Assembly (NCBI RefSeq): GCF_003751225.1
Contig: NZ_RJKE01000001.1
Coordinates: 5,208,001-5,272,000 of the forward strand
Origin: Actinocorallia herbida
GTDB taxonomy: Bacteria > Actinomycetota > Actinomycetes > Streptosporangiales > Streptosporangiaceae
Length of the DNA: 64,000 bases
Reading direction: 5' to 3'
Position numbers and translations under genes: made by a program. Of the stretch, positions 1 to 29,651 are shown in pieces. Every line of letters begins with the position of its first letter. Within the stretch, counting starts at the first letter, position 1. The notes under the pieces were generated by a model, which was given only the letters and a program-made list of their open reading frames with translations, had not been told where the DNA came from and made no database searches.

Positions 1-3000
1 GGTCGAGGGAGACCAGGGCCATGTCGGAGGGGGTGTGGCCGCCGACGGGGCCGTCGCCGGAGACGTGCGCGGCGAGGCCGTCGAGCGCGGCGGTCCAGTC
101 CTCGGCGAGCGCCTCGACCTCCCACCGGGCGAACAGCCCGGACGGGTAGGTCCACGAGGCCCGTAGGACGGGTCCGGCCGCGGTGTCCTCGGCCAGGACC
201 GTCACCTCCAGGGCCGCGGCGGCCGGGGCCGCCGGGTCGTCGACACCCGTGAGCGCCGCGAACTCCGCGGCCTCGGTCCACGGTCCGTCCGGCGCCCCGC
301 CGCCGAACCTGCCGAGGTAGTTGAACAGGATCGGCGGCTCGGGGGCGTCGGCGAGTTCGGGCGCGGTCACCGGGTTCAGGTGGCGCAGCAGCCCGTAGCC
401 GAGGCCCCGGTCGGGCACCGACCGCAGGCTCTCCTTGACGGCCTTGACGGCGCGGCCCGCATCGGGGCCTCCCGCGAGGACGTCCTGGGCGTCGATGCCG
501 CCGAGGTCGAGGGCCACCGGGTACTTGGAGGTGAACCAGCCGACGGTCCGGGACACCTCGGCCCCGGCGACGGCCTCCTCCTCACGCCCGTGCCCCTCCA
601 GGGAAACCCGTACGGACGAGTGGCCGGTGCGCGCGGCGACCGCGACGCCGACGGCGGCCAGCAGCACGTCGTCGATCCCCGCGTAGAACGCCTCGGGCAC
701 CTCGGCGAGGACCGCGCGGGCGGTCTCCACCGGGACCGCGACGCGCACGGTGTCGAGGGTCTCCCCCACGTCCACGGCGGGATCGAGCGGGCGGGCACCC
801 AGCGGGGCCCCTTCGGCTTCGGTCATGGCCTTCCACACCGGCAGTTCGGCGACTCGGGCGGGCTGCGCGGCGGCTTCGACGAGGCCGAGCGCCCAGTGCC
901 GGAACGGGGTCCCGGCAGGGCCGAGATCCGCCTCGGTCCCGGCCAGGGCCGCGGCGTAGGCGGCGGCGAGGTCTGGCACGAGCACGCCCCACGACACCGC
1001 GTCGACCGCGAGGTGGTGGACGACGAGGCCGAGCCTGCCGCCGTGGCCGCCGCCGTCGAACCAGACGGCCTGGAGCAGCACCCCGCGGCCTGGATCCAGC
1101 CGCTCGGCGGCGCCGGCCATCTCCCGCACCACCAGCGCCTGCGCCTCGGGGGCGCCCCACGGCCCGGCTTCGACCCGCCGCAGCAGGGCCGCCGGACCAC
1201 CGGACCGGCCTCCCGGCTCGGCGGGTCCGGGATCATCGGTCGCGGCGCAGGCCGTCAGCGTGGCATCGGCGGTCACGGCCGGTCCCGCCCCGGCCCCGGA
1301 GCCGTCATTTGCCCTGCCACCGGCGGACCCGGCCGGGTCCGCCTCGTTCACGGGGATGCGCAGGCTCCAGCCGTCGCCGTCGGGCGTCACCACCGCCCTC
1401 AGCACGTCGTGCCGGGCGAGCAGTGTGCCCAGTGCACTGGCGAGGGCGGACGGGTCGAGAACGTCCGGCGCCTCCAGCACCGTCGTCTGGGTGAAGCGGG
1501 GGCGCAGGCCGTCGCGGGCCAGGACCTCCCGCATGAGCGGGGTGAGGGGCACGGGGCCGGTGGCGGCGTGCGCGGTCGGCGCCGGCGTCTTGTCGCGCCG
1601 GGGCCGGGCCTCCAGGGCCGCGGCGAGGTCGCCGAGGGTGCGGTGCTCGAACACGTCGCGCGGGGAGGCGGTGAGGCCCGCCGCGCGCAGCCGGGAGACC
1701 AGCCTGATCGAGACGATGCTGTCGCCGCCGAGGGCGAAGAACGCGTCGTCCGGTCCTGCCGTCTCCAGCGCGAGCAGGTCGGCGACGATTCCGCAGACCA
1801 GTTCCTCGGTCTGCGTGCCGGCCGCTCGCGACGTCGTCTCGGTCTCCGGCTCGGGCAGCGCCCTGCGGTCCACCTTGCCCGACGGCATCAGCGGGAACAC
1901 CGGCAGGTGGGTGAACACGTCGGGGACCATGTGCTCGGGCAGCCGGGCGAGCGCCCAGGCCCGCAGCTCCGCGGCGTCGAAGGCCGAGCCCGCGCGGGTG
2001 ACGGTGTGGCCGATGAGCCGGTCGGCCCCCGCGGCGTTGCGGTGCACGACCACGACCGCTTGGCGGACCGCCGGGTGCTCGCCTAGCGCGGCCTCGATCT
2101 CCTGGAGCTCGACCCGCATGCCGCGGATCTTCACCTGGTGGTCGGCCCGTCCGAGGAACTCCAGGGTCCCATCGGGCGCCCAGCGGGCCAGGTCTCCGGT
2201 CCGGTAGAGGCGGGCGCCGGGCGTCCACGGGTCGGCGACGAACTTCGCCGCGGTCTGCCCGGGATCGCCGACGTAGCCGCGGCCGAGCGGCAGGCCGCCC
2301 GTGTACAGCTCGCCCTGGACGCCGACCGGCACCGGCTCGAGCGCCGCGTCCAGCACGTGGATGCGGGTGTTCGGGTTGGGCCGCCCGATGCTGATGCCGT
2401 GACGTTCCTCGCCGTCGCGGTAGAACTGGTGGCTGACGCCGATCGTCGCCTCCGCCGGGCCGTACCCGTGGTACATGACGGCGTCGAGGGTCCGCCGGAA
2501 CCGCGCGAAGAGGTCGGGCGTGAGGGCCTCGCCGCCGCACCACACGTGCTTGAGGGTCGGCACGGCGGCGGTGATCCCGTCGAGCTGGAGCAGCATGTCC
2601 AGCATCGAGGCGACGAGGTAGGTGAAGCTCACCCGGTGCCGGACGATGAGGTCCAGCAGGTACTCCACGTCGCGTTCCCCACCGGGCTCGGCGACGACCA
2701 CGGTCGCGCCGGTGACCAGCGGCAGGAAGATCTCGTTGACGGAGATGTCGAAACCGAGCGGCGCCTTGAACAGGGCGGCGTCGCCGGGGCCGAACCCGAG
2801 CATCGTCTCCTGCCACAGCAGCCGGGCCGCGATCGCCCGGTGGCAGATCATCGCGCCCTTCGGCGTCCCGGTGGAGCCCGAGGTGTAGATGACGTACGCG
2901 AGCCCGTCCCCGTGCAGGGGCGCGGGCACGACGGGGCGGTCGGCCGGGCCGATGTCGCCGGTGCGCAGGACGGGAACGCCTTCGGGCAGGCCGTCGCCGG

Positions 3001-4689
3001 TCAGGCTGACGACCGCGCGGAGCCGGGCCGTGGCGTGCACGTCGGCGTAGCGCCGGTCGGGCCAGGCGGGCTCCAGCGGGACGAACGCGGCGCCCGTCCG
3101 CTGGATCCCGAGCAGGACCGCGACGAGGTCGGCCGAGCGGTCGAGGTGGACGCCCACGATGTCCTCGGCCCCGGTCCCCAGCGTGAGCAGGGCGGCGGCC
3201 ACCTCGTCGGCACGCCGGTCCAGGTCGGCGTAGGACAGGACCCGGTCGCCGTCGACGACGGCGGGGGCGCCGGGCGTGCGGGCGGCCTGCGCGGCGAACA
3301 GGCCGGGCACCGTCACCTCGGGAACGGGCGCGGCGGTGGCGTTCCATTCGGTGACGAGCCGGCGCCGCTCGGCCGGGTCGAGCACGTCGATCCGGGACAG
3401 CCGGGTGTCGGGGTCCTCGGCGAAGGCGGTGAGGATCCTGCCGAGCCTCGCGGCGAGGACTTCGACGCTCTCCTTGTCGAAAAGACCGGAGTCGTACTCG
3501 ATCGTCCCGTCGTAGGACCCGTCGGGCAGCGGACCGAAGTTGACCGCGAGGTCGAACTTCGCGCCGGCCTCCGTGCCGCCGCCGGACAGGACCTCGACGT
3601 CGATGCCGGGCAGGCCGGGGTGGCGGGGGCCGTCGGTGCGGAAGTCCACCATCGCCTGGAACAGCGGGTGGCGGCCCGCCGCGCGCGGCGGGTTGACCGC
3701 CTCCACGACCCGGTCGAACGGGGCGGCGGCGTGCGCGTAGGCGTCGAGCGCCGTCTCCCGGACCCGGCCGAGCAGTGCGCGCGCGGTCGGATCGCCGGAC
3801 ACGTCGGTGCGCAGCACGACGGTGTTGACGAAGAAGCCGACGAGATCGTGCAGCGCCGCGTCGTCCCGGCCCGCAGACAGGGCGCCGAGCGGGAGGTCGG
3901 TGCCCGCGCCGAGCCGGTGCAGCAGCGTGCCCACGGCGGCCTGGACGACCATGAACTCGCTCGCCCCCGCCGACCTGGCCAGAGCGCGCAGCCCCGCGAC
4001 GGTCACGGCGGGGACCGGGAAGGAGACGAGCCCGCCGGGGCCGCCGCGCTTCGTCCGGTCGGTGGGCAGGGCCAGCTCCTCGGGGAGCCCGGCCAGGGCC
4101 GCCTTCCAGTGGGCGAGGTGCCCGGCGAGCGCGCTGCCCGGGTCGTCGGCGCGGCCCAGGACCTCGTCCTGCCAGAGCGTGTAGTCGGCGTACTGGACGG
4201 GCAGCGGGTCCCAGCCGGGGGCGGCGCCCGCGGACCGGGCCCGGTAGGCGGCCGACAGGTCGGCCAGCAGGGGCCCGGTGGACCAGTCGTCGCCCGCGAT
4301 GTGGTGGACGACGAGGACCAGCACGTGGTCGTCGGCGGCGCGCCGCAGGAGTCCGGCCCGCAGCGGCGGGGCGTGCTCCAGGTCGAACGGCCGGGCCGCG
4401 ATCTCGGCGACGAGCCCGTCCAGGTCGGCCTCGGCGGCCTCGAGGACGGGCACGGCCACCGGACCCGGGGGCAGGATGCGCTGGTACGGGGTGCCGTCGT
4501 CGTCGGGGAAGACCGTGCGCAGGGTCTCGTGGCGGGCCACGACGTCGGCGAGCGCCGCGGTGAGCGCGGCGGTGTCGAGCGGGCCGCGCAGCCGCGCCGC
4601 GAACGGCACGTTGTAGGTGCCGGACGGCCCTTCCAGCCGGTGCAGGAACCACAGCCTGGCCTGCGCCGGGGACAGCGGCAGCCGGGCGG
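1..4689 (-). other. NRPS module 6: C-A-PCP-E, predicted N-hydroxyornithine
   Basis: LCL-type C domain ([13 protein letters not shown] opening, HHIAGDDWS), A domain, PCP (ALGGDSIVS) and epimerization domain ([28 protein letters not shown]). The pocket reads D-I-N-Y-W-G-G-I-G ([32 protein letters not shown]). With the invariant Lys this is the code described for the N-delta-formyl-N-delta-hydroxyornithine module of coelichelin synthetase. It predicts a hydroxamate ligand, epimerised to D. The C domain is a close duplicate of the module 5 C domain. The window cuts the linker after the E domain. Confidence 0.8.
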
Positions 4690-7600
4690 GACGCGGGCGG
4701 GACGCGAGCACCGCCCCCGTGTCCTCCGGGGCCGCCCGGTCGAGCGCGGCGGCGAGACCCGCGACCGTCGGATCGTCGAACACCGTGCGGACGGGCAGGG
4801 ACCTCCCGGTCTCGGCCCGCAGCAGCGCCAGGAGCCTGGTGGCGAGGAGCGAGTGACCGCCGAGGTCGAAGAACGAGTCGTCGGGGCCCGCGCCCGTGAC
4901 GTCGAGGACCGCGCCGAACAGCCGCGCGACGAGCCGCTCGGAGGCGGTCCGGACGACCGCGCCGCCGCCGGTGAACTCCGGGACGGGCAGCGCGGCCCGG
5001 TCGAGTTTGCCGTGCGGGGAGCGCGGGAAGGCGCCGAGCACGACGACCGCGGCGGGCACGAGGTGCCCGGGGAGGGTCGTGCGGAGCCGCGCGCGGACGT
5101 CCGCCGGATCGACGGCCGCGCCCGCCGCCGGGGTCACGTAGCCGACGAGGCGGGTCACCGCGCCATCCGTGCGGGCGACGACCGCGGCCTGCGCCACCTC
5201 GGGCAGCGCGGTGAGAGCGGCTTCGACCTCACCGGGTTCGATCCGGAAGCCGCGGATCTTCACCTGGTCGTCGCCGCGGCCGAGGAATTCCAGGGTCCCG
5301 GCGGCGGTCCAGCGGACGAGGTCGCCGGTCCGGTACAGGCGTCCGCCCGTGCCGAAGGGGTCGGCGACGAACCGGGCCGCCGTCTCCCCCGGCCGGTCCA
5401 GGTACCCGCGGGCCAGGCCGGCGCCCGACACGTACAGCTCGCCCGGGACCCCCGCGGGCACCGGCGCGAGCCCGGCGTCCAGGACGCGGACGGACAGTCC
5501 CGCGACCGGGCCGCCGATGTGCGGTGCCTCGCCCGGCAGGATCGGCGTCCACGTCGCGTCGACCGTGCACTCGGTCGGGCCGTAGAAGTTCAGCGCCGTC
5601 ACGCCGTCGACCGCCGCGAGGTCCCGCCACAGGGCGGGTCCGACGGCCTCCGCGCCCGTCGCCACGACCGACGGCCGGTGCTCCCCGGTGAGGAGTCCTT
5701 CGGCCAGCAGCGGGTCGAGCAGGGAGGGCGGCACGTCGAGGAAGTCGATCCGGTGCTCCCGGACGTAGCCGACGATGCCCGCGGCGTCTCCCATGAGGGC
5801 GTCGGGCAGGACGTGCATCTCGTGCCCGGCCAGCAGCCACGCCAGGGGGTCGACCGACCCGTCGAAGGCGAACGACAGCAGGTTCAGCACCCGCAGCCGG
5901 CGGCCCGCGGCGCCCGTGGCCGGGTCCATCACCGCTGAGCGGTGGGCCGCCACGAGGTTGGCGACGCCGCCGTGCGCGGCGACGACGCCCTTGGGCCGTC
6001 CGGTGGAGCCGGAGGTGAACACGACGTAGGCCGCCGCGTCCGATCCGACGGGGCCCGCCGGGGTCGCGCCGCCGGTCCAGGAGGCCGGTTCGTCGGCGAA
6101 GACCAGGGCGGTGCCCGGCGCGAAGGAGCCGGCCAGCGCGCGGGTGGTGAGGACGAGGCGCGGCCTCGCCTCGGCGAGGATCGCGGCGAGGCGCTCGGCC
6201 GGGTGGGACGGGTCGAGCGGGACCGTGGCGGCCCCGGTCTTCCAGACCGCGAGCATCGCGGTGACCGCGGCGGCGGAGCGGGGCAGCGCGACGGCCACCC
6301 GTTCCTCCGGGCCCGCGCCGAGGGCGGCGAGGTGGCCGGCGAGCCGGTCGGCGCGCACGTCGGCCGCGCCGAAGGAGACCGCTCCGTCCTGGCCGACCAG
6401 GGCCGTCGCGGAGTACGCGGCGCGCACCTGGCCGTTCCACAGCTCGGGGATGGTCCCGGAGGCGGGCAGGTCGGTGCCGCCCCAGACGTCGAGGAGGGTG
6501 TGGCGCTCGTCGTCGGAGAGCGTGTCCAGGGCGGACAGCGGGCGATCGGGCAGCGCGGCCATCCCGGCGAGGACGCGGGCGAGCCGGTCGAGCAGCCCGG
6601 CGACGGTCGCCTCGTCGAAGAGGTCGGCGTCGTACTCGGCGGAGCCGAGGAGGGCGCCGGTCTCCCGGTCGGCGGTGAAGCTGAGGCCGAGGTCGAACTT
6701 GGCGGTCGCGGGCGCGGGCGGCGCCAGCGGGGCGACGTCGAGCCCGGTGAGGCCGGGGTCGTCGCCCGCCGGGTTCCAGTAGTCCACCAGCGTCTGGAAC
6801 AGCGGGTGGCGGCCCGCCGCGCGCGGCGGGTTCACCGCCTCCACGACGGCGTCGAAGGGCACGTCGGCGTGCGCGTAGGCGTCCAGGGCCGCAGCGCGGA
6901 CGCGGCGCAGCACCTCGCGCGGCGTCGGGTCGCCGGAGAGGTCGATCCGCAGCACCACCGTGTTGACGAAGAAGCCGACGAGCGGCTCCAGCGCGGGCTC
7001 GGACCTGCCGGACACCAGGGCGCCGAGCGGGATGTCGGTGCCCGCGCCCAGCTTGTGCAGCAGCACCGCGACCGCGGCGTGCACGAGCATCAGCTCGCTC
7101 GCGCCGGTCTCGGCGAGCAGCGGGCGCAGCGCCGCGAGCGTCCCGGCCGGGATCTCGGCGCGCACGCGCCCGCCGCCCGCGGCGGGGACGATCGGGCGGG
7201 GCCGGTCGGCGGGCAGCTCGATCGCCTCGGGCAGGTCGGCGAGCGCCGCCTTCCAGTGCGCGAGCTGGCGCTCGGCGAGCGGCGCGGGCCGCTCGGGCGT
7301 GCCCAGCAGCGCCTCCTGCCAGAGCGTGTAGTCGGCGTACTGGACGGGCAGGCCGGCGGGCCGCGTGCCGCCGCCGGAAAGACGCGCGGCGTAAGCGGCG
7401 GAGAGGTCGCGCAGCAGCGGTCCGGTCGAGCCCTCGTCGCCCGCGATGTGGTGGACGACGAACGCCAGGACATGGTCCGCGGCGGCCAGGCGCAGGAGCA
7501 GCACCCGGATCGGGAGGTCGGTCTCCAGCGCGAAGGGCGCGGCGCAGAAGGCCCGCACCGCTTCGGACAGCCCCTCCTCGGTGGCGTCGGCGATGGCGAA

Positions 7601-10600
7601 GGGCACCTCCGCGTCGGTCCGGACGAGCTGGACGGGCACTCCCCCCGCATCGGGGAAGACCGTCCGCAGGCTTTCGTGCCGGGCGGTCACCTCGGTGAAG
7701 GCACCGCGCAGAGCGGCGGTGTCCAGCGGGCCCGTCAGGCGCATCGCGAAGGGCAGGTTGTAGGTAGAGGACGGCCCTTCGAGGCGGTCTAGGAACCAGA
7801 GCCTTCGCTGCGCGGCCGACGGCGGCAGCGCGGCCGGGCGGGCGGCCCGGACCAGGGCGGGGCGTGCCGTGTCGGCCGCCGACGCGTCGAGGTGCGCGGC
7901 GAGCCCGGCGACGGTCGGCGCGTCGAAGACCGCGCGGATCGACACCGCGCCGCCGCGCTCGGCCCGGACCCGGGAGATGAGGCGGGTGGCGAGCAGTGAG
8001 TGCCCGCCGAGGGCGAAGAAGGAGTCGTCGGCGCCGACCTCGGCGACGCCCAGGACGTCGGCGAACAGGCGGGCGACGAGCCGCTCGGTCTCGGTGCCGG
8101 GCTTTCGCCCCGCGGCCGCCTCGCGCGCGGGGGCGGGCAGGGCGCGCCGGTCGAGCTTGCCGTGCGGGGAGACGGGGAAGGCGTCGAGCACGACGACGGC
8201 CTCGGGCACGAGGTGGCCGGGCAGCCTGTCGCGCAGCGCCGCACGCAGCGCGGCGGCGTCGAGCGTGGTGCCTTCGGCCGGTGTGACGTAGCCGGTCAGC
8301 CGGTCGGTCCCGTCGTCCGCGCGCACGAGGACGACGGCCTGGGCGACCCCGGGCAGCGCGACGAGGGCCGCTTCGACCTCGCCCGGCTCGATCCGGAAGC
8401 CGCGGATCTTCACCTGGTCGTCGGTGCGGCCCAGGAACTCCAGGGTGCCGTCGGGCGTCCAGCGGACCAGGTCGCCGGTCCGGTAGAGCCGTCCACCGGA
8501 CCCGAACGGGTCGGCGACGAACCGGGCGGCGGTCTCCCCCGGCCGGTCCAGATACCCGCGGGCGAGACCCGCGCCCGACACGTACAGCTCGCCGGGCGCG
8601 CCGACGGGCGCGAGGGCCAGGCCGGCGTCGAGGACGTACGCGCCGAGCCCGGCGACCGGGCGGCCGATGTGCGGGGCCGCCCCCGGCAGGATCGGCGTCC
8701 ACGTCGCGTCGACCGTGCACTCGGTCGGACCGTAGAAGTTCAGCGCCGTCACGCCGTCGGCCTCGGCGAGCGCGTTCCACACGCCGGGTCCGACGGCCTC
8801 CGCGCCGGTCGCGACGACCGACGGCCGGTGGTCCCCGGTGAGCAGGCCGTCGGCGAGGAGCAGTTCCAGCAGGGACGGCGGGGCATCGAGGAAGTCGATC
8901 CGGTTCTCCCGGACGTAGCGCACGATCTCGCCGGAATCGCCCATCAGGGCGTCGGGGAGGACGTGCATCTCGTGCCCGGCGAACATCCACACCAGGGGGT
9001 CCACCGACCCGTCGAACGCGAACGACAGCAGGTTCAGCACCCGCAGCGGACGGCCCAGCCGTGTCCGGGCGTCGTCCATCACCGCCGCGCGGTGCGCCAG
9101 CGCCAGGTTCACCGCGCCGCCGTGCGACGCGACGACCCCCTTGGGCCGGCCGGTCGAGCCGGAGGTGAACACCACGTAGGCGGCCGTGTCCGGGCCGACC
9201 GGACCCGCTGGGGACCTCCCAGGCGTCCAGGACTCAGGGTCGTCGACGAGCACGACGGGCAGGTCCGGCGCGTGAAGGCCGGTGCCGTGGGCGGTGAGCA
9301 GCAGCGCGGGCCGGGCCTCGGCGAGGATCGCGGCGACGCGGGCGGGCGGGTGGGCCGGGTCCAGCGGGACGGTGGCCGCGCCGGTCTTCCAGACCGCGAG
9401 CATCGCCACGACGGTCGCGGCCGAGCGCGGCACGGCGACGGCGACGCGGGACTCCGGTCCCGCGCCCATCGCCGCCAGGTGGGCGGCGAGCCGTTCGGCG
9501 CGGGCGTCGAGGTCGGCGAACGTGCGGGATCCGTCGGGGCCGGTGACCGCGACGGCGTCCGGGGTGCGCGCCGTCTGCGCGGCCCACAGGCCGGGGAGGG
9601 TGCCGGTGCCCGCGGGCCCGGCCTCCGCGCCGCTCCACGCGCGGAGGCCGGTGCGCTCCCCCGGGGTCAGCGTGTCGAGCCGGTGCAGCGGGACGCCCTC
9701 GGCGAGGGCCTCCAGCACGCTCAGCACCCGGCGCAGGATCACCGCGGCGGCGTCGTCGGCGTACAGGTCGGCGCGGTACTCCAGCTTGACGCGCAGGAGG
9801 TCGCCGTCCGGCATGAGCATGAGCGTCAGCGGATAGTGGGTGAAGCCCCGCGACCAGCCGACCTCGGCGCTGAGCCCCCCGGCTCGGGCGGGGTCGAGCA
9901 GGTCGGCGGTGTCCAGCGGGAACGTCTCGAACACCATGAGGGTGTCGAAGAGACGGCCGTCGGCGCCCGCGGCCTCCTGGATCTCGGTGAGGCCGAGGTA
10001 CTGGTGGTCCAGGACCCGGGTCTGCGCGTCCTGGAGCCGGGTCAGCAGGTCGGCCGCGGTGTCGCCCGGCGTCCAGCGGACCCGGACGGGCACCGTGTTG
10101 ATGAAGAGACCGACCATGGACTCCACGCCGGCGAGCTCGGGCGGACGGCCGGAGACCGTCATGCCGAACACGACGTCGGACGTGCCGGTGATCCGGCCGA
10201 GCGCGACGCCCCAGGCGGTGCTGAGCAGGGTGTTCAGGGTGACGCCCGTGGCGCGGGCGGTCCGGGCGAGCCGCGCGGTCAGGGCGGGCGGGATCACGTC
10301 GTGCACCTCGGACGGCGGCACGACGCCGTCGCCCGCGCCGGGCCCCGCGACGAGCGTCGGCCCCTCGGCACCGTCGAGGACCTCGGCCCACGCGGCGCGC
10401 GCCTCGGCCCGGTCGCGGCGGGCCAGCCAGGCCAGGAAGTCCCGGTACGGGCGGGATCGTTCGGGAAGGTCCGCCTCCTCGGCCGCCTCGTAGAGGGCGA
10501 AGAGGTCGCGGACGACCAGGGGCGTCGACCAGCCGTCGAGGACGAGGTGGTGGTTGGTGACGACGAGCCGGTGGTCGCCATCGCCCAGGCGCAGCAGGGT

Positions 10601-13600
10601 GAGCCGCAGCAGCGGGGCGCGGGTGAGGTCGAACGGCGCGCGCCGGTCGGCCTCCAGGAACCCCGACAGGTCTTCTGCGGCCAGGTCGAGCCGGGTGAGC
10701 AGCGGTTCGACGCCCTCGGTGACGATCTGGACGGGCTCGCCCGCACGGGTGTCGGCGAAGACGGTCCGCAGCACCGGGTGCCGGTCCAGCAGCGCGCGGG
10801 CCGCGTCGCGCAGGCGCGCGAAGTCCAGCGGCCCCCGGAGGTCGACGACGAGCTGGACCGCGTACAGGTCCTCGGCGTCGGCGTCGAACCTGGCGTGGAA
10901 CAGCAGCCCTTCCTGGAGCGGCGAGAGCGGCAGCACGTCCGACAGCGCGGGATGCGCGGCCTCCCACAGCTCGACGTCGGCCTGCGCGGCGCGCACGAGG
11001 GGCAGGTCGGACGGGGTCCGGCCGCCCGCGCCGTCGCGGCGCACCCGCAGCACGACCGCGGCGAGGGCGTCGCGCCACAGCCCGGCGAGCCCGGCGACCT
11101 CGGCGTCGGTGAACAGCGCGGCGGGGAACTGGGCGCGGATCACGAGCTCGGTCCCGTCCCGGCCGTCCACGGCGGCGACGTTGAAGACGAGCGCGGCTCC
11201 GGCGGGCAGCCCGGGGTCCGCGGCCGGGGCGATGCCGCCGAACGCGATCGCGGCGAAGCCGAGCGGGTCGGCCTCGGCGCGGGCGGCCCGGCCGACGTAG
11301 TTGAAGAGGATCTGCGGCTCCGGCCACGGCCCCTCCGCACCGCCGAGGAACCTGACCAGGCCGTATCCGGCGCCCCGGTCGGGCAGCGTCCGCAGGTGCT
11401 CCTTGACCCGCTTGACCATGTCCGTCGCCTCGGGTCCCGCGCCGAAGGCGGCGTCGAGGTCGAGTCCCGCCGCGTCGAGCCGCACCGGGTACTGGGTGGT
11501 GAACCAGCCGACGGTGCGCGAAAGGTCGGCGTCCGGCACGAGCTGCTGCTCACGGCCGTGCGCTTCGATGTTCACCAGCACCGACGGGACGTCCTGGCCC
11601 CGGTCGGCGCGCCAGCGTGCGACGGCGAGGCCGAGCGCGGCGAGGAGGACGTCGTCCGCGCCCGCGTGGAACGCGGCGGGCACGTCGCCGACGACGGCGG
11701 CCGACAGGTCGCCCGGCAGGGTGAGGGAGACCGTCCGGACCGTCGCGCGGGTGTCCCGGCGCGGGTCGAACGGGCGGACGCCCAGGGCAGGGTCCCCCGC
11801 GGCGACGATGCCGCGCCACAGGTCCGGTTCCCCGGCGCGGTCCCGCGCGGCGGCGTCGAGGCCGAGGGCCCAGGCACGGAACGAGGTCGGAACCTCCGGC
11901 AGCGCCTTGCCCGGCTCGGCCAGGGCGGCGGCGAGGTCGCCGGCGAGGATCCGGCAGGAGATCCCGTCGGTGACGACGTGGTGGCAGGTGAGCAGCAGCC
12001 CGCCGGGCGCGGCGGCGCCCCCGTCGAGCCAGGTCGCCCGTGCCATGACGCCCTCGGTCCGGGCGAGCCGGGCCACGGCCGCCGCGTGCTCGCGGCGCAC
12101 GGCCTCGGCGGCGCCGGTTCCCTCCAGCGGAACCCGCAGCAGGACGGCACCGGCGGCGACGCTCCCGGCCGGGCGGACCACGAGGTGGTCGGCGCCGTCG
12201 GGGAAGACCGCGCGCAGCAGGTCGTGCCGGTCCAGTACCGCCTGCACGGCGGACTCGACCCGCTCGTATGCGGTGCCGGGCTCGACGGGCACGAGGACGG
12301 CCTGGGAGAACCGCTCGAACGGTCCGCCGCGCTCCAGGAAGGCGCGCATGATCGGCGTCAGCGGCACCGCTCCGGTGGCGGCCTCCGCGGGGGCGGCCTG
12401 GGCCGCGGGGCGGGCGACCGCCGCGAGCTCGGCGACCGTGCGCAGCTCGAACACCTGGCGTGGGGTGAGGCCGAGGCCCGCGGCGCGGGCGCGGGAGACG
12501 AGCTGGATGGAGACGATGCTGTCGCCGCCGAGGTCGAAGAACGACTCGTCGGCGCCGACGGACTCGTGCCCGAGGAGGTCGGCGAACAGCCCCGCGAGGA
12601 GCCGTTCGGTGTCGTCGGCGGGCGCGCGGCCCGCCGTGCGGCCGGAGGAGAGGTCGGGGTCGGGCAGCGCACGGCGGTCGAGCTTGCCGTTGGCGGTGAG
12701 CGGGAACGCGTCGAGCGGGGTCAGCGCGGCGGGGACCATGTGCTCGGGCAGCCGCGCGGCGAGTGCCTCGCGGACGTCGCGCGGGTCGGCGTCACCGGTG
12801 TAGTACCCGGCGAGGACGCGGATGGACGGGACGGACCGGTGCGCGGACGCCCCGGCGAAGCCGGGTCCTCCATGTGGCCGAGCACCGGTCCCAAGGGGCA
12901 CGGACCGGACGGTGACCGCCGCGCCGGTCACGCCCGGCACCGCCGCCAGCGCGGATTCGACCTCACCCGGCTCGATCCGAAAACCGCGGATCTTCACCTG
13001 GTCGTCGGCGCGGCCGAGGTACTCCAGCTCGCCGGACGACGTCCAGCGGGCGCGGTCGCCCGTCCGGTAGAGGCGGGATCCCGGCGCGCCGAACGGGTCG
13101 GCGACGAACCGGGTGGCGGTGAGCGCGGGCCGGCCGAGGTAGCCGCGCGCGAGCTGCGGCCCGCTCAGGTAGAGCTCGCCCGGTGCGCCGTCCGGGACGG
13201 GGCGCAGTGCCGGGTCGAGCAGGTGGACCCCGAAGCCGGGCAGGCCGCGCCCGATGACGCTCGACGGCGAGGAGAAGGCCGCCCGGTCGAGCGCGCGGAA
13301 GGTGACGTGGACCGTCGTCTCGGTGATCCCGTACATGTTGACCAGGCGCGGCCCGTCCGGGCGGCGGGCGTGCCAGTCGGCGAGCCGCGCCGGATCGAGC
13401 GCCTCGCCGCCGAACACCACGGTCCGCAGCGCCAACGGGGTGCCCGGCCGGTCGGCGTCGGCGGAGGCGAGCTGGTAGAACGCCGACGGCGTCTGGTTGA
13501 GCACGGTCACGCGGTGCCGGGACAGCAGGGCGAGGAGGTCGTCGGGTGAGCGGGAGTCGGCGTGCGAGACGACGACGAGCCTGCCGCCGTGCAGGAGCGG

Positions 13601-15582
13601 CCCCCAGGTCTCCCAGACCGAGAAGTCGAAGGCGAACGAGTGGAAGAGCGTCCACACGTCGTCGGCGCCGAACGCGAACCGTTCGCGGGCGGCGGCCAGC
13701 AGCGCGGCGACGGCGCGGTGCGGGACGACGGCGCCCTTGGGGGCGCCGGTCGAGCCCGAGGTGTAGATGACGTACGCGGCGGCGTCCGCCCGGTCGGCGC
13801 GGGCGGGCCGCTCGGGTGTCGACCGGCCGTCGGGGGCGAGGCGCGGGGGCGCTCCGGCGGGCAGCGCGAGGTCGTCGAGGGCGACGACGGCGACGGGCTC
13901 CGCGTCGGACAGCGTGAACGCGATCCGCTCGGCCGGGTAGCCGGGATCGATCGGCAGGTAGGCGGCACCGGTCTTCAGCGCGGCGAGCGCGGCGACCACG
14001 AGGTCGGCCGATCGCGGGAGCAGCACGGCGACCAGGCGCTCCGGTCCGGCGCCGAGCGCGGCGAGGCGGGCGGCGAGGGCGTTGGCGCGGCCGTCGAGTT
14101 CGGCGTAGGTGAGGGTGCGGTCTCCGTCTTCGATCGCGACGGCGTCGGGCGCGCGGTCGGCGACGGTCTCGAACGCGGTGGCGAGCGTGGTGTCCGGGAC
14201 GGCCAGGGCCGTGCCGGCGAGCGCGCGGCCGACGAGCGCGGCGGTCTCGTCCTCGGCGAGCGGCTCCAGGGACGCGGCGGGCGCGGTCGGGTCGGCGACG
14301 AGCCCGGCGAGGACCCGGCGGAACCGGGCGACGAGTTCCCGCGCGCCTTCGGCGGACCGGACGTCGGGCCGGTACTTGAGGGTGACCTCGAGGCCGTCCG
14401 CCGAGGGCATGACCATGAGCGTCAGCGGATAGTGGGTGGAGATCGGCCGGTGGACCCCGGCCACCCGCAGCCCGCCCGCGGTCAGGGCCGCGTCGATGGC
14501 GGCGTTGTCGAACGGGAACGACTCGAACACCACGAGGCAGTCGAACAGCTCGCCGGTGCCGAAACCCGCGGCCTGCTGGAGGTCGGCGAGGCCGACGTGC
14601 TGGTGGTCGAGCAGGTCGGCCTGCTCGCCCTGGACGCGCGCGGCCAGCGCGGCGACGCTCTCCCCGGCCCGCAGCCCGATCCGGACCGGCAGGGTGTTGA
14701 TGAACAGGCCGACCATCGACTCCACGCCGGGCAGGTCGGCGGGCCGGCCCGAGACCGTCGCGCCGAAGAGCACGTCGTCGCGCCCGGTCAGCCGGGCGGT
14801 GAGCAGGCCCCACGCGACCTGCACCAGGGTGTTGACGGTGACGCCGAGGGAGCGGGCGAGCTCCGCGAGGCCGTCGCCGAGCGCGGCGGGAAGGGTCTCG
14901 ACGTGCTCGGCGGGCAGCAGCGCGGGGGCGTCCCGCGTAGACGGCGTGAGCAGCGTCGGCTCCTCGACGCCGTCCAGCGCGGTCCGCCACGCGGCGAGGG
15001 CCGCGGCGCGGTCGCGCCCGGCGAGCCAGGCGAGGTGGTCGCGGTAGGGCGCGGCGTACGGGAGGCGCGGGTCGGCGCCGTCCGCGGCGTAGAGGGCGAA
15101 CAGGTCGCGCATGAGGAGCGGCGTGGACCAGCCGTCCAGGACGATGTGGTGGTTGGTCAGGACGAACCTGTGCGCCTGCGGGCCGAGCCGCACCACCGTC
15201 GCGCGGATCAGCGGCGGCTCGGTCAGGTCGAACCTGCGGGTCCGGTCGGCCTCGACGACGGCCCGCGCCCGGTCCTCGGCGTCCGGGCCCGCGACGTCGA
15301 CCTCGGTCCACGGCACCTCGACCGAGCGCAGCACGAGCTGCACGGGGTCGCCCACGTCGAGCGCGAACGCGCTGCGCAGGGCGGTGTGCCGGGCGGCGAG
15401 GGCGTTCACCGCGCGGCGCATCCGCGCGGCGTCGAACGGCCCGGCGAAGTCCACGACGAGCTGGGCGACGTAGACGTCGACGGACTCCGCGGCCGCCCCG
15501 TCGTCCAGGACCGAGTGGAACAGCAGGCCCTTCTGGAGCGGGGACAGCGGCAGGATGTCCTCGATCGGGGATCCTCCGGCGC

Positions 15583-15586
<4 letters not shown>
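1..15586 (-). CDS. Giant NRPS, four modules, 3' end beyond window
   Basis: Peptide-elongating nonribosomal peptide synthetase, cytoplasmic. The frame is open without a stop from ATG 15586 to the window edge (at least 5195 residues). The start begins ATGAGCGCCGG and overlaps the TGA of the upstream NRPS (ATGA), so translation is probably coupled. Domain order, with rough residues, is C (1-430, HHIVLDGW near 147), A (FDFSVW near 650), PCP (GGDSI near 1018), E ([10 protein letters not shown] near 1200), C (1545-), A (FDGSVD near 2190), PCP (GGHSL near 2525), C (2590-), A (FDGSVD near 3240), PCP (near 3580), C (3635-), A (FDISVN near 4285), PCP (GGDSI near 4620), E ([10 protein letters not shown] near 4860). 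C domains that follow an E domain carry the PLSPLQ(K/E)GLLFH opening typical of DCL domains, so the chain logic is consistent. The window ends in the linker after the last E, so the protein may stop soon or continue with another module. Modules are described separately. Confidence 0.95.
3100..9396 (-). repeat. Tandem A-PCP-C duplication inside the NRPS gene
   Basis: Two copies of an A-PCP-C unit lie in tandem with a period of about 3147 bp: A4-PCP4-C5 (about 6250..9396) and A5-PCP5-C6 (about 3100..6249). Matching landmarks include CCGGTCTTCC at 9381 and 6234, AGGATCGGCG at 8688 and 5538, and CGCCCGCGAT at 7438 and 4291. The offsets are 3147-3150, close to or exactly 1049-1050 codons. The outer limits are approximate because they were judged by eye. 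Confidence 0.75.
4690..7834 (-). other. NRPS module 5: C-A-PCP, same unassigned code as module 4
   Basis: LCL-type C domain ([13 protein letters not shown] opening, HHIAGDEGS active site), then an A domain whose pocket residues are identical to module 4 (D-G-D-D-V-T-F-V-D), then a GGHSL-type PCP. Long stretches match module 4 almost base for base at a spacing of about 3147-3150 bp. Two consecutive identical residues are therefore predicted in the product. Confidence 0.75.
7835..10969 (-). other. NRPS module 4: C-A-PCP, unassigned (possibly basic) residue
   Basis: The C domain opens with [13 protein letters not shown] and has HHLVLDGWS, a DCL-type domain after the preceding E. The A-domain pocket reads D-G-D-D-V-T-F-V-D by eye ([32 protein letters not shown]). 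Three acidic residues besides the invariant Asp235 and a Gly at 236 would suit a cationic side chain such as Arg, Lys or Orn, but I do not recognise this code and the inference is weak. There is no E domain, so an L-residue is expected. The A and PCP domains are near-duplicates of module 5. Confidence 0.75.
10970..15586 (-). other. NRPS module 3: C-A-PCP-E, predicted threonine (to D-form)
   Basis: First module of the giant NRPS. The A-domain pocket, aligned by eye to GrsA positions 235-331, reads D-F-W-N-V-G-M-V-H, with the invariant Lys assumed. The pieces are [32 protein letters not shown]. This matches the established threonine code (DFWN-I/V-GMVHK). The PCP is followed by an epimerization domain with HHVVTDG and an EAHGRE motif, so a D-threonine or D-allo-threonine residue is expected. 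The leading C domain is DCL-like, fitting the E domain at the end of the upstream protein. Confidence 0.85.
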
Positions 15587-21859
<6,273 letters not shown>

Positions 21860-21863
<4 letters not shown>

Positions 21864-24800
21864 GCCGCGCCCTCCTCGTCCATCAGCGCCAGCACCTCGG
21901 CGTCGGTCATCGACTCGATCTCCCAGACCACCGCGGCGATCTCCTCGAGCCGTCCCGGCCTCGCCTGGCCGCGCACCAGCGCGGCGGCGAGCCCGGCGAC
22001 GGTCGGCGCGCCGAACAGCGCGCGGACCGAGAGGGACGCGGTGTCCAGCAGGTCGCGCAGCCGGGCGATGATCGCGGTCGCCAGGACCGAGTCGCCGCCG
22101 ACCGCGAAGTACTCCTCGCGGGCGCCGAGCCCGTCCAGGCCGAGCGTCTGCCGCCAGACGAGCGCGATGACCTCCTCCAGTGCGCCGGACGGGGCGGGCC
22201 CCCGGTCCGGGCCGCCGGCCTCGGCCGCGAGCGCGGCGGCGACGGCCCTGCGGTCGATCTTGCGGTTGGGGGTGAGCGGCAGGGCGTCGAGCACGGTGAT
22301 CCGGCCCGGCACCATGTGCGGCGGGAGCAGACCGCGCGCCCGCTCGGCGATCCGCGCGGCGACGCCTTCGGGCGCGCCCGGGACCGGGACCACCGCCGCG
22401 CCGAGGACGGGCGCGGAGCCCGTGCCGACGATCGCCGCCGCCGCGGCGGACGCCTCGGGGTCGGCGGCCAGCGCGGCCTCGACCTCGCCCAGCTCGATCC
22501 GGAAGCCCCGGATCTTCACCTGATCGTCGCGGCGGCCGAGGAACTCGAGGCCGCCGTCGGGCCGGTAGCGCGCGAGGTCGCCCGTCCGGTACCAGCGGCC
22601 GCCCTCGTGTTCGACGAACCGGTCGGCGGTGCGCGCGGGATCGGCGCGGTAGCCGTGCGCGACGCCCGCGCCGCCGATCCACAGCTCGCCGGGCACCCAG
22701 TCGGGCCGGTCGGTCCCCGCGGCGTCCACGACGCGGCAGCGCACATTGCCCAGCGGGACGCCGTAGGGCACCGAGTGCCAGTCGGCCGGGACGTCCCCGG
22801 CGACCTCGAGGAAGGTCGAGTGGATGGCGGTCTCGGTGGTGCCGCCGAGCGCGGTGAACCGGCAGCGGGGCGCGGCCGCGGCGAGCCGGGCGGGCAGATC
22901 GGTGCCGACCCGGTCGCCGCCGAGCAGCACCGCGCGCAGCGTCGAGCCGAGCGGTACGCCGGCGGCGAGCAGCATGTCGAGCAGCGCGGGCACGCAGTTG
23001 AGGATCGTGACGCCGTGTTCGGCGACGAGCGCGCCCCAGCCCTCGGCGTCCCGCCGGTCCTCGGTGACGGGCACGACCGCGCCGCCCACCGACAGCGGGG
23101 CGAACAGGTCGAACACCGACAGGTCGAAGTCCAGCGCGGACAGCCCGAGCGTCCGGTCCGCGGGGCCGAGCCCGTACCGGTCGATCAGGTCCTCGATCGT
23201 GGCCATCGCCGCGCGGTGCGGGACCTCGACGCCCTTCGGCTCGCCGGTCGAGCCCGAGGTGAACAGGATGTAGGCGGTCGTCTCCTCCGGAACCGCGAGG
23301 GGCCCGGCGAGCGGCGCGGCCGTCAGCGCCTCGGCCGGCCGAAGGGTCTCCGGCCCGCCCGTCTCGGCGAGGACGACCCGGTGGCCGGTGCGGGCGGCGA
23401 TCCGGGCGGCGCGCGCCTCCGGCTGCTCCACCCCGATCGGGACGTAGGCCGCCCCGGCGGCCAGCACACCGAGGACCGCGGCGACCTGGTCCGGCCCCTT
23501 GGGCAGCGTCACCGCCACGGGATCGCCCGGCCGCACGCCGCGCGCGGTCAGCGCCCCGGCGACGCGCAGCGCCCGGTCGGCCAGCTCCCCGTAGGTGACG
23601 GTCTCCGCGCCGAGCAGCGCGGGCGCGTCCGGCGCGGTGCGGGCACGGGCGAAGAACCCGTGGTGCAGCAGCGCGCCGGAGCGGGGCCGGTCGGTGGCGT
23701 TGACGCGGGCGCGGCGCTCGCGCTGGCCCTCGGGCAGGAACCCTCCGGCGGCCTCCCGCCAGGCGGCGGGATCGGCGGCGAGCCTGCGGACGAGGCCGGT
23801 GAACGCGGCGAACATGGCGTCCGCGACGCCGTCCGCCAGTTCGTCCTCCCGGCAGTCCCAGTTGACGAGCAGCCCGCCGTTCAGCTCGGTGATCTGGGCG
23901 TCCAGCAGCACCTGCGGGCCCTGGGAGATGATCCAGGCGGGCTCGCCGAACCGCCCGCGCACCTCGGCGTCGAAGAGCTCGCCGAGACCCAGCGCGCTGG
24001 TGAACACCACGGGCGCGAGGACCTGCTCGCCGTGCAGGCGGGTGAGGTCGCGCAGCACCTCGACCCCGGTGTAGTCGGCGTGCGCGGTGTCGGCGTGCAT
24101 CCGGGCCTGGACCCGCCGGGCCCGGTCGGCGAACGCCTCGGGCGCCGAGAGGTCCACCTCCAGCAGGACCGACCCGGTGAAGTCGCCGACCAGGCCCGCG
24201 ACGTCCGGGTGGACCGGCTCGCGGTCGAACAGCGGCACGTTGAGCAGGAAGCGCGGCTCGGCGCTCCACGCCCCGATCACCTCGGCGAACGCGCTCGCCA
24301 CGGCCATCGCGGGGGTGACGCCGTGGGCGCGCGCCGCGGTCTCGAGCGCGGCCTTCTCCCCGGCCGTCAGCGTGACCGCGCGGCGGGTGACCCGCGGCGG
24401 CCCGTCGGGGGCGTGCGGTGTGCGGGGCAGGTCGGGCGCGCCGGGCAGGGACGGCAGCCGGTCGCGCCACCACTCGGCGGCGCGCCGCGCGGACTCGGCG
24501 CGGGCGGCGGGACGGGCCGCGCGATAGGACGGGTAGTCGTAGGCGAGCGGTGGTAGGCCCGCGTCCGGGTCGGCGTAGAAGCGGGCGAGGTCGGCGAGCA
24601 GGATGCGGTAGCTGACGGCGTCGGCGGCGACCATGTCGACGTCCAGGTGCAGCCGGGTCCGGCCGCCGGGCAGCAGGGTCAGCGCGGTGGCGAACACCTC
24701 GCCCGCCTCGATGTCCAGCATCTGGTGGGAGTACCGGTCGCGGATCGCGGCGAGTTCCGCCTCTCGCTCGGCGCCGGGGAGACCGCGCAGGTCGTGCACG

Positions 24801-26650
24801 GTGAGCCCGCGCCACCCCGAGGTCTCCGCGACGTGCTGGCGACCGTTGTCGGTGACGACGACGCGCAGCATCGCGTGCCGGGCGACGAGCCGCTCGATCG
24901 CGGCGCGCAGCCGTGCGGGGTCGACCTCGGCGCCGTCGAACTCGGTGTAGAGGTGGGCGGCGACTCCGCCGAGCCGCTGGCCCGAGCCACGGCCCACCCA
25001 GTAGGCGTGCTGGAGGACGGCGAGGGGGAAGGTCCCGTCATCGTCGGCGGACGCGCCGGCCGCCACGGGCTCGGGCCCGGGTTCCGGCACGGCCGCGGGA
25101 CGGCGCGCGGCCAGCAGCTTGGTCCAGCCGTCGAGCGTAGGGTGCTCGGCCAGCTCGGCGAAGCTCACCTCCACCCCGGCCTGCCGCCAGGTCCCGACGA
25201 CCTTCATCAGCGAGATCGAGTCGAGGCCGAGCTCGAAGAGGTTGTCGTCGAGCTCGATGTCCTCGGGCTCTTCCTCGGTCAGCCTGGCGGCCAGGACGCG
25301 CAGCGCGCCCTCGGACAGGTCGGGCCCCTCGACCTCCGGGGCCGCCGGGGCCGCCGCCGGGACGAGGAAGCGGGAGACGCTGAGCAGCTTCTCGTTCGTC
25401 TCCTCCAGCTCCCGCTCCGGCGTGGACATCGCGACGACGCCCGCGCCCGCCCGCAGCCAGGTCCGGCCGTCGCGCGAGTAGACCGAGCGCAGCACGAGCG
25501 CGGCGTCGAGTCCCCCGTCGGCGTCCGCGGCGAAGACCGCGCCGCTGTAGAGGCCGCGCGGCTCGCTCTCGTGCCGGGCGATGAGGTCGAGGGCGGGCGG
25601 CTTGGGAATGCCCGAGGCGGTGACCGCCGGGAACAGCGCGGCGAGCGCGTCCCAGGGGCCGACGCCATCGGCGAGGACGCCCGACACCCGCGACGCGAGA
25701 TGCTGGACGCTGCCGCGCTCCTTCACGTCGAGGAACTCCGACACGTGCAGGGAGCCGTCGCGGCACAGCCCGCGCAGCTCGTCCTGGGCGAGCCGGACGG
25801 AGATGGCGTGCTCGAAGACCTCCTTGGGGTCGGCGAGCAGTTCGCGGCGGTGCGCGAGGTCGGTCTCCGGGTCGCCGACGAGGCTGCGGGTCCCCGCGAG
25901 CGGCTGGGTGGAGACCGACCCGTCGGGGGCGACCTCGGTGACGGTCTCCGGGCTGAACCCCGCGGCGCGGACGCCGCCGAGGTCGAGCAGGAAGGACCGG
26001 GCCGGGTCGTTGCCGCGCCGCCCGGCGACGTAGGTCGCGGGCAGGTCGATCTCGCCGGGGACGGGCACGACGCGGGAGAGGATGACCTTCTCCAGCAGGC
26101 CGGCGTTGATGTCCGCGACGGCCCTGGACACGGCGGCCTTGTAGGCGTCGGCGCCGACCTCGCGGAAGGGGGCGGGATCGTGCGGCGGGGCGGCGGGGGG
26201 CGCGGGGTCGGCGAGGGCCGCGGCGTACTCGGCGCGGGTTCCTTCGCCGGAGGCGTCCACCGCCCCGTCGGGGCCGAGCACGATCTCGCGCTCGGGGACG
26301 AGCAGGTGGAGCAGCGTGCCGGATCCGGCCGCGGCGGCGGAGCCGTGCAGCAGGTGGGCCAGCTCGAACGCGGCCCAGCCGTAGGCGCGCCGCCAGGGAA
26401 GCCCGGACAGCAGGGCCGCGACCTGGCGCAGCGGGTGGGGGCCGGTCGGCTCCTCACGCACGGTGCCGCCGTGAACGAGCGTCACGCGCTCCCGGTCCAG
26501 CCGCAGCTCGGCGGCGGCGCCCGCCGCGAACGTCCAGACTCCGTGCCGTTCGTAGACCACGTGCGGGTCGGTGGTGCGGCGGGCGAGCGCGGCAGCGGTG
26601 ACGAGCGGATCGGAGGACGGCTCGGAAGTCGGAGTGGGGGTCAGGGACAT
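21860..26650 (-). CDS. Salicylate synthase-ArCP-Cy-A-PCP fusion
   Basis: 1596-residue fusion that should make the first ligand. Residues 1-430 are an MbtI/Irp9-type salicylate synthase (chorismate to salicylate plus pyruvate): LLEKVILSR, EHAISVRLAQ, VKERGSVQHL, FPAVTASGIPK, RGLYSGAVF and GAGVVAMSTPERE align closely with MbtI. An aryl carrier domain follows (GLDSISLMK near 478). Then comes a heterocyclization domain (DVDMVAADAVS near 672, the DxxxxDxxS motif), an A domain (FDFDLSVFD near 1175) and a PCP (VGGDSVLAT near 1518). The A pocket reads D-L-F-N-L-G-L-I-H by eye. It resembles the cysteine code of Cy modules (DLYNLSLIW) but with Gly and His replacing Ser and Trp, so Ser, Thr or Cys cannot be separated. 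The product should be a salicyl-oxazoline or -thiazoline. Start ATG 26650 follows GCAGAGG. A salicylate synthase fused to an NRPS is unusual; it is normally a separate gene. Confidence 0.93.
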
Positions 26651-26695: not shown

Positions 26696-26920
26696 TCAGG
26701 CGGTCCGGTCCTCGGCCATCGCGGCGATGAGGCTCGCCGGGCGCATGTCCGTCCAGTTCTCCTCGATGTACTCCAGGCAGTCCCGCCGGGCGTCGGGGCC
26801 GTGAACCGTCGTCCAACCTGCGGGGACGTCGGTGAACACGGGCCACAGGGAGTGCTGTCCCTCGGCGTTGACCAGGACGAGGAAGGTGCCGTTCTCGTCG
26901 TCGAAAGGGTTGACGGACAT
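26696..26920 (-). CDS. MbtH-like NRPS accessory protein
   Basis: 74-residue MbtH-family protein that binds and activates adenylation domains. Family hallmarks are [28 protein letters not shown] and a C-terminal WTDMRPASL. It is the first gene of the siderophore operon: 45 bp separate it from the fused salicylate synthase/NRPS, and AGGAGG lies 8 bases before its ATG. The iron box lies about 95 bp upstream. It probably serves several of the A domains downstream. Partner specificity cannot be read from the sequence. Confidence 0.96.
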
Positions 26921-28232: not shown

Positions 28233-28802
28233 TTACAGGAGGGTGCGCCAGTAGAACCAGAAGCGGTTGAGGATCAGGAGGGCGATCGCGAGGTACCAGA
28301 GGACGGGGAGGAGCCAGGCCACGCGGGGTGGAAGGCGCCGGACCCGGACGGCGGTCACGCAGGCCAGGAGGATCGTGACGATCCAGATGGCGACGCAGTA
28401 GGGGCAGACGGCGCCGATGCGGTAGAGGGTCTGGAAGATCAGCCAGTGGACGAAGACCAGGCCCGCGACGCTGCCGGCGTGCAGGCCCAGCCAGATGCGG
28501 CGGTGCAGCGCGGTCCCGGAGAGCAGGACGGCGCCCAGCGTCAGCACGACGGCGAAGGCGACCAGGCCGAGGAGCGGGTTGGGGAAGCCGAAGGCGGCCG
28601 CCTGCTCGGTCTTCATGACCGTGCCGCAGCTGAGGATCGGGCTGATGTTGCAGCTGGGACGGTATCCGGGATTCTCCAGCAGCCGGATCCTCTCCAGGGT
28701 CAGGACGGCCGAGACCGCCAGTCCCACGGCTCCGGAGAGGGCGATCGTCCAGGCGAAGGAGCGTGCGGCCGCGTCGCGCCCCGGGTCGGCGGTCGTGGTC
28801 AC
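28233..28802 (-). CDS. Vitamin K epoxide reductase (VKOR) family protein
   Basis: 189-residue integral membrane quinone-linked thiol oxidoreductase with about five hydrophobic helices. It carries the loop cysteines in CNISPILSCG and the active-site CPYC in RIGAVCPYCVAIW. In actinobacteria VKOR reoxidises the periplasmic DsbA-like enzyme and passes electrons to quinone. The gene directly upstream encodes such a DsbA, and its stop overlaps this GTG start (GTGA), so the two form a disulfide-bond pair. Complete length for the family. Confidence 0.92.
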   Translation of the reverse strand: MTTTADPGRDAAARSFAWTIALSGAVGLAVSAVLTLERIRLLENPGYRPSCNISPILSCGTVMKTEQAAAFGFPNPLLGLVAFAVVLTLGAVLLSGTALHRRIWLGLHAGSVAGLVFVHWLIFQTLYRIGAVCPYCVAIWIVTILLACVTAVRVRRLPPRVAWLLPVLWYLAIALLILNRFWFYWRTLL

Positions 28803-29560: not shown

Positions 29561-29651
29561 GTCGTCCTCGCATGCGTAAGAGAGCACTGAAGAGTGCGGG
29601 GAAGAAGCGCATGGGCCATGACCGGAGGCCGCTGGAAGGCAGGGGCGTCCG

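Follow-up and report, generated by a model that had tools for sequence, protein, structure and literature searches.

A salicylate synthase fused in one reading frame to ArCP-Cy-A-PCP domains within a putative siderophore cluster of Actinocorallia herbida

Organization of the fused gene

The window analysed in this study is a 64,000-nucleotide stretch of the Actinocorallia herbida genome (contig NZ_RJKE01000001.1, positions 5,208,001 to 5,272,000). The minus strand at 21860-26650 is a single open frame with an ATG start and zero internal stops, in which a salicylate synthase domain runs into the aryl carrier (ArCP), heterocyclization (Cy), adenylation (A) and peptidyl carrier (PCP) domains of a nonribosomal peptide synthetase (NRPS). 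The initial annotation had placed these domains on one polypeptide, and the single frame and the Pfam/TIGR03494 domain scan confirm this. The fusion is a genuine, conserved and uncommon architecture with ordinary chemistry. The gene and its parts, with confidence in the linker given as predicted local distance difference test (pLDDT), are as follows.

21860..26650, minus strand: fused salicylate synthase-ArCP-Cy-A-PCP gene, 1596 amino acids, one frame
25361..26599, minus strand: salicylate synthase domain, residues 18-430 (TIGR03494, 426.9 bits; MbtI/Irp9 alignments; fold match)
25304..25360, minus strand: linker between the two domain models, residues 431-449 (Ala/Pro-rich at its start; low pLDDT)
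25115..25303, minus strand: aryl carrier domain, residues 450-512, with LGLDS (Pfam PP-binding; EntB and HMWP2 ArCP matches)
24005..24946, minus strand: Cy domain core, residues 569-882, of a whole domain at about 540-980 (Pfam Condensation; DxxxxDxxS)
22259..23656, minus strand: adenylation domain, residues 999-1464 (Pfam; pocket code DLFNLGLIHK)
21962..22198, minus strand: peptidyl carrier domain, residues about 1485-1563 (second PP-binding stretch; bounds approximate)

The Pfam scan showed Chorismate_bind at residues 168-421 (4.9e-69), Condensation at 569-882 (2.2e-24), AMP-binding at 999-1334 (9.6e-74), AMP-binding_C at 1389-1464 and PP-binding in two stretches (best 450-512). The first carrier matched the ArCP part of EntB chains (2fq1, 3rg2) and of HMWP2 (2n6z). 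The condensation domain holds DMVAADAVS, in agreement with DxxxxDxxS, which we take to be the heterocyclization motif. The order of an initiation module is present, namely ArCP with its serine, Cy with DxxxxDxxS, A and PCP. The pocket code DLFNLGLIHK of the A domain is Cys/Ser/Thr-like, on code positions (from GrsA) and code meanings that we assume. The carrier motif is GLDS in the window and GLES in the ArCPs compared from Frankia gtarii (L035), Actinokineospora (L036) and Frankia's family, with the serine kept. The guanine-cytosine (GC) content at codon position 3 was 0.90-1.00 in 20/20 blocks of up to 80 codons each and was unchanged across the junction. A chance open frame in high-GC DNA was excluded by the domain scores and this codon-position GC.

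Salicylate synthase domain

The TIGR03494 match covered model positions 6-424 of 425, and its score lies well above the equivalog cut-off of 325.15. The domain could be aligned over its length with the salicylate synthases of M. abscessus and M. tuberculosis and with Irp9. The alignment showed that the equivalents of MbtI K205, E252, T271, E297, H334 and E434 are all conserved; we take these residues, so numbered, to have catalytic or Mg-binding roles. An AlphaFold2 model of the first 535 residues, made with 22 sequences, had a mean pLDDT of 85.3 and a predicted template modelling score (pTM) of 0.77. In a fold search with this model, the top hit was the M. abscessus salicylate synthase 8qij (43% identity, template modelling score by target 0.93), followed by MbtI, with 37-41% identity to the MbtI chains. 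From the conserved residues and the fold, the domain looks active.

The window genome (9.8 Mb, single contig) has only one match above the salicylate synthase cut-off. The three others, at 76-103 bits, probably belong to related enzymes of chorismate metabolism. The free-standing form, which is usual for MbtI/Irp9 and does not define them, is not the form found here.

Distribution of the fusion

The named-genome scan kept 80 loci of 93 relatives; it required exact peptide patterns, which makes its count a minimum. The whole fusion was found in one frame in at least two named genomes, F. gtarii and Actinokineospora sp. NBRC 105648. The identity of the window to F. gtarii was 68% in the synthase, 64% in ArCP, 79% in Cy, 64% in A and 73% in PCP; to Actinokineospora it was 67, 67, 72, 71 and 70%, respectively. 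Across the fused relatives, the identity per domain was 48-80%. At least six other named-genome loci have a synthase gene followed directly by a separate ArCP-Cy gene.

Within the window's order, 78 salicylate synthase matches (E up to 1e-90) were counted in 72 of 345 genomes, and the window's own is the only fused one. The frames of 74 other matches are at most 639 amino acids long and could not accommodate synthase, ArCP and Cy; the last three, in longer frames (G154, G107, G223), have no ArCP or Cy in frame. This count agrees with the earlier view of the fusion as unusual. Long frames in G223, G154, G107 and G053 of this order, in G479 and G526 of another family and in G525 and G582 of Frankia's family were rejected as fusions, having no ArCP or Cy in frame.

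Among 394 genomes of the class, frames longer than 1300 amino acids were confined to the window and one family, which includes F. gtarii. Frankia's family has 26 salicylate synthase matches in 23 of 35 genomes. ArCP and Cy lie in the synthase frame in 20 of the 26 (19 genomes, F. gtarii included); 17 of these fusions can be traced to the PCP and three are cut by contig ends. One of the other six (L144/L178) breaks inside Cy, one meets a contig end and four have no ArCP or Cy in frame. The initial annotation had asked whether many well-described homologues share the fusion. Homologues are many (20/26 in Frankia's family, and one in Actinokineospora), so the fusion is no singleton; well-described ones were not found in print.

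Some genomes of Frankia's family showed variants. L178 (G509, a single-contig genome) is a fused gene with a frame break inside Cy, after which Cy resumes in another frame. G332 (L164, L180) and G428 (L166, L160) each carry both a fused salicylate synthase and one that is not fused. G517 has two fused synthases (L176, L177), which lie on separate contigs and are each truncated by the contig end.

Flanking genes were counted in 20 intact fused loci (L035, L036, L161-L177, L179). MbtH lies at most 0.4 kb upstream of the synthase match in 17 of them, and the upstream sequence of L179 is too short for this count. The ligase comes next downstream in 18; the sequences of L176 and L177 stop short of where it would lie. 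Most fused loci with enough sequence have another condensation domain downstream. Among the split pairs, the MbtH and ligase order of the fused loci recurs in L037, L092 has the ligase upstream, and in L039, L052, L053 and L062 neither MbtH nor ligase was found at the thresholds used in the stretch examined.

Two loci showed the ligase in other arrangements. In L175 (G437, Frankia's family), the frame at 2674-9528 on the gene strand continues after the PCP into a ligase that is 67% identical over ligase residues 12-462 and is cut by the contig end. A synthase-ArCP-Cy-A-PCP-ligase chain is possible there; the genome is one draft assembled into about 850 contigs. In L092 (Burkholderia guangdongensis), ligase and salicylate synthase share one 996-residue frame at 6276-9263, which is a different fusion, and ArCP-Cy is a separate gene joined by TGATG.

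Linker between synthase and carrier

The scan of the 19 residues between the two domain models in the window found no in-frame ATG, GTG or TTG, so one polypeptide is expected. A second, shorter NRPS made from an internal start is unlikely in the window, and a free NRPS of this origin was rejected as a reading because the linker lacks a start codon. The linkers of L161, L162, L166, L171 and L175 (at least nine codons scanned) also have no in-frame start codon; the scans of L172 and L173 covered 2 and 0 codons, too short to tell.

In the AlphaFold2 model, residues 431-450 fall in blocks with pLDDT of 59 and 61, with a segment below 50 at 437-442. Confidence in the carrier was no more than moderate (block means 49-78), and for this reason nothing is inferred from the relative placement of synthase and carrier. 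If the linker is taken to begin where the synthase match stops and to finish 38 residues ahead of the carrier motif, its length in the fused loci ranges from 0 to 81 residues (4 in the window), and it is not conserved. In the linkers present, Ala, Pro, Gly, Ser, Thr and Val make up 75-100% of the residues. The variable length and the composition are as expected of a putative flexible tether.

Origin of the fusion

The candidate starts of the split pairs showed GTGA junctions in P. xinjiangensis and N. donostiensis, ATGA in P. lacus and P. humida, TGATG in B. guangdongensis and a junction over 12 bases in P. endophytica. One of the three short junctions is found in 5 of the 6 split relatives, and overlapping neighbour genes are the likely ancestor of the fusion.

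Three trees were built. As short or weak, 15 matches were omitted, including the fused Frankia-family fragments L176, L157 and L179, and 30 loci were omitted as copies; L155 (contig end) and L178 were labelled free in this row selection. The synthase tree used 52 of 126 rows (19 fused, 6 neighbour pairs and 27 selected of 101 'free'), the Cy tree used 46 loci with a Cy match longer than 300 residues, and the concatenated tree used 37 rows (20 fused including L178, 6 neighbour pairs and 11 selected others). The window, F. gtarii and Actinokineospora grouped together with support of 99/96 (synthase), 100/99 (Cy) and 100/99 (concatenated). Since they come from three families, the cassette was probably transferred between families. 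The other fused genes of Frankia's family form a branch apart from this group.

One origin of all fusions is favoured by the Cy and concatenated trees, and the synthase tree is against it. In the Cy tree, all 21 fused rows and L178 fall together (90/82), and in the concatenated tree the fused rows lie on one side of a branch. The synthase tree alone has two fused groups, and its one-clade approximately unbiased (AU) test, with L155 and L178 counted as fused, gave p 0.03, which speaks against one origin. In the concatenated tree the fused side has support of only 85/75, and the neighbour pair of P. xinjiangensis is placed beside the fused genes at 83/70, which leaves a single origin tentative. 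The Cy-tree one-clade test (p 2.5e-8) was rejected as evidence of two origins, because the fused, frame-broken L178 sat in the 'other' group.

Neighbouring genes and predicted product

The fused gene lies among further biosynthetic genes on the same strand.

26696..26920, minus strand: MbtH-like protein directly upstream of the fusion, 74 amino acids (Pfam MbtH, 1.1e-28)
20220..21863, minus strand: separate ligase joining salicylate to adenosine monophosphate (salicyl-AMP ligase), 547 amino acids; GTGA overlaps with the genes on both sides
15583..20223, minus strand: NRPS with C-A-PCP-E domains; A-domain code DFTKVAEVGK
1..15586, minus strand: giant NRPS, 5209 amino acids, of which the last 44 bases (stop included) lie beyond the window start; 4 A, 4 PCP and 7 condensation-type domains

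The ligase start overlaps the fusion stop as GTGA. The initial annotation had described the ligase as separate from the fusion, as is found here. Its closest solved sequence is the salicylate-AMP ligase 5wm2 (E 7.8e-199), and it scored 648.7 bits against TIGR02275, the equivalog for dihydroxybenzoate (DHB)-AMP ligase, under the cut-off of 723.55. This lower score would fit a salicylate-specific relative rather than EntE proper. The ligase, the C-A-PCP-E NRPS and the 5209-residue NRPS are linked downstream of the fusion by stop/start overlaps. Beyond the window lie a C-A-PCP-TE gene, a siderophore-type binding protein, a TauD-type oxygenase, two ABC transporters and two FecCD permeases.

The code DFTKVAEVGK is presumably Asp/Asn-like. 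On the same assumed positions and meanings, the A-domain codes of the cluster after the fusion read Asp/Asn-like, Thr, two ambiguous, hydroxyornithine-like and one ambiguous. The product is most likely a mixed-ligand siderophore of the phenolate-heterocycle kind. The TauD-type oxygenase (L115:12134-13129, minus strand) stands beside the siderophore-type binding protein and is a candidate tailoring enzyme, perhaps acting on the Asp-like residue. A VKOR gene (28233-28802, minus strand) and a DsbA/thioredoxin-like gene (28802-29905, minus strand) adjoin each other beside the cluster and perhaps encode a disulfide-forming pair.

Proposed role and alternative explanations

We consider it highly probable that the fusion is real and inherited and takes part in a siderophore starter pathway. 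In the proposed mechanism, the N-terminal domain would convert chorismate to isochorismate and then to salicylate, as MbtI, Irp9 and YbtS do. Salicylate would be released from the synthase domain, adenylated by the neighbouring ligase and loaded by it onto the ArCP of the same chain. The Cy domain would join the salicyl group to the PCP-bound amino acid and cyclize it to a 2-hydroxyphenyl-oxazoline or -thiazoline, and the downstream NRPSs would extend this heterocycle into a mixed-ligand siderophore. Two overlapping neighbour genes probably became one when the stop between them was lost. The fusion would act as a flexible tether, giving 1:1 stoichiometry and raised local salicylate near the ArCP and the docking ligase, and no tunnel. 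As activation would take place in trans, a covalent tie between synthase and ArCP is not in itself enough to channel salicylate; it could hold the synthase where the ligase docks.

Several observations weigh against this reading. L175 and L176 have no MbtH in about 3 kb upstream. An in-frame start codon of some kind occurs in the linkers of 11 of the 18 relatives scanned, and the L036 linker has a GTG with a Shine-Dalgarno-like stretch, so internal starts may be used in relatives. The A-domain code of the fusion is as close to Cys as to Ser/Thr. Both ornithine monooxygenases of the genome are more than 1 Mb from the cluster, so the hydroxamate part depends on an assumed code meaning. The available part of the kineochelin source (PMC13238742) regards N-hydroxyornithine production from an external gene as in keeping with related siderophores.

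The initial annotation had suggested that the fusion could channel salicylate. Direct channelling is not supported, because salicylate would have to leave the synthase to meet a ligase on another chain, and because the linker varies, is predicted to be disordered and is modelled with low confidence; at most, proximity is raised. A functional channelling complex, in which salicylate would reach the docked ligase, and then ArCP, straight from the synthase and apart from the bulk pool, would fit the retention of the fusion across diverged lineages, the ligase gene next downstream wherever the intact loci extend that far, and the ligase within the same open frame in one draft genome. We think it unlikely, as the window's ligase is separate, the linkers span 0 to 81 residues, are compositionally biased and not conserved, and their pLDDT is low. 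A neutral fusion, with the stop lost between overlapping genes and the product kept as harmless and spread with the cluster, is possible, although we doubt it. Overlapping neighbour pairs exist among the relatives, the linker varies, and published related pathways use free-standing synthases in the portions of the sources at hand (PMC10951976, PMC13238742), whereas most Frankia-family matches keep the fusion despite divergence and two other families also have it. The channelling and neutral explanations differ from the tether proposed here only on what the fusion is for.

A sequencing or assembly error or a decayed gene, which the initial annotation had raised as a lost stop between the domains, has next to no chance of being right. 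Nothing in the window points to it, and the frame break in Cy was seen in one relative only, L178. The window genome is a single contig with uniform codon-position GC, and diverged, independent homologues that retain the fusion in the same frame exclude sequencing error.

More speculatively, we consider a stepwise recruitment of aryl-acid synthesis onto the NRPS, from overlapping genes to synthase-ArCP-Cy-A-PCP and then to the addition of the ligase (L175), with real retention of salicylate. This idea is improbable in our estimate. If true, it would lead to one polypeptide able to produce, activate, load and cyclize the starter it uses. The fused genes and the overlapping neighbour genes form a natural pair for measuring what is gained when a diffusible precursor is tied to its carrier, and the fusion is a ready-made starter cassette for phenolate siderophore engineering. 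In genome mining, salicylate synthases may need to be sought inside NRPS genes.

Comparison with known systems

MbtI, MbtB and MbtA of mycobactin, and Irp9/YbtS with HMWP2, are the same enzymes as here with a free-standing synthase. EntB is an isochorismatase-ArCP protein with a separate ligase, EntE, so that a precursor-making enzyme is fused to an aryl carrier; it is a different enzyme from salicylate synthase and is not continued by Cy-A-PCP. The fusion is comparable to EntB in logic, and the window ArCP matches that of EntB, whereas the upstream enzyme differs.

The starter genes of amychelin, gobichelin, cahuitamycin and kineochelin (AmcL-AmcH-AmcG, KinL-KinH-KinA) resemble the fusion cluster in bringing together the synthase, the salicyl-AMP ligase and an NRPS with ArCP and Cy-A-PCP, according to the accessible part of PMC13238742. 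In that text, KinL is called 'standalone', in contrast to the single chain of synthase and initiating NRPS in the window. The madurastatin pathway (Mad31, Mad60, Mad63; ReneM, N, Q) has the same set of activities and a heterocycle starter, and unlike in the window its synthase and NRPS are separate genes in the sections available (PMC10951976). The synthase is also separate in the fatuamide cluster, from an excerpt of its source (PMC11877528), and the kasichelin paper, in the part consulted, points to a synthase in another cluster (PMC12305651). The main text of a metallophore-mining paper mentions salicylate synthase four times and contains neither 'fused', 'fusion' nor Frankia (PMC12971057). 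No description of the fusion was found in the open-access library searched, the subscription literature being mostly outside the search. Further counterparts are the fused genes of Frankia's family (L035, L161-L177, L179), which have the same domain order as the window and mostly the same flanking genes.

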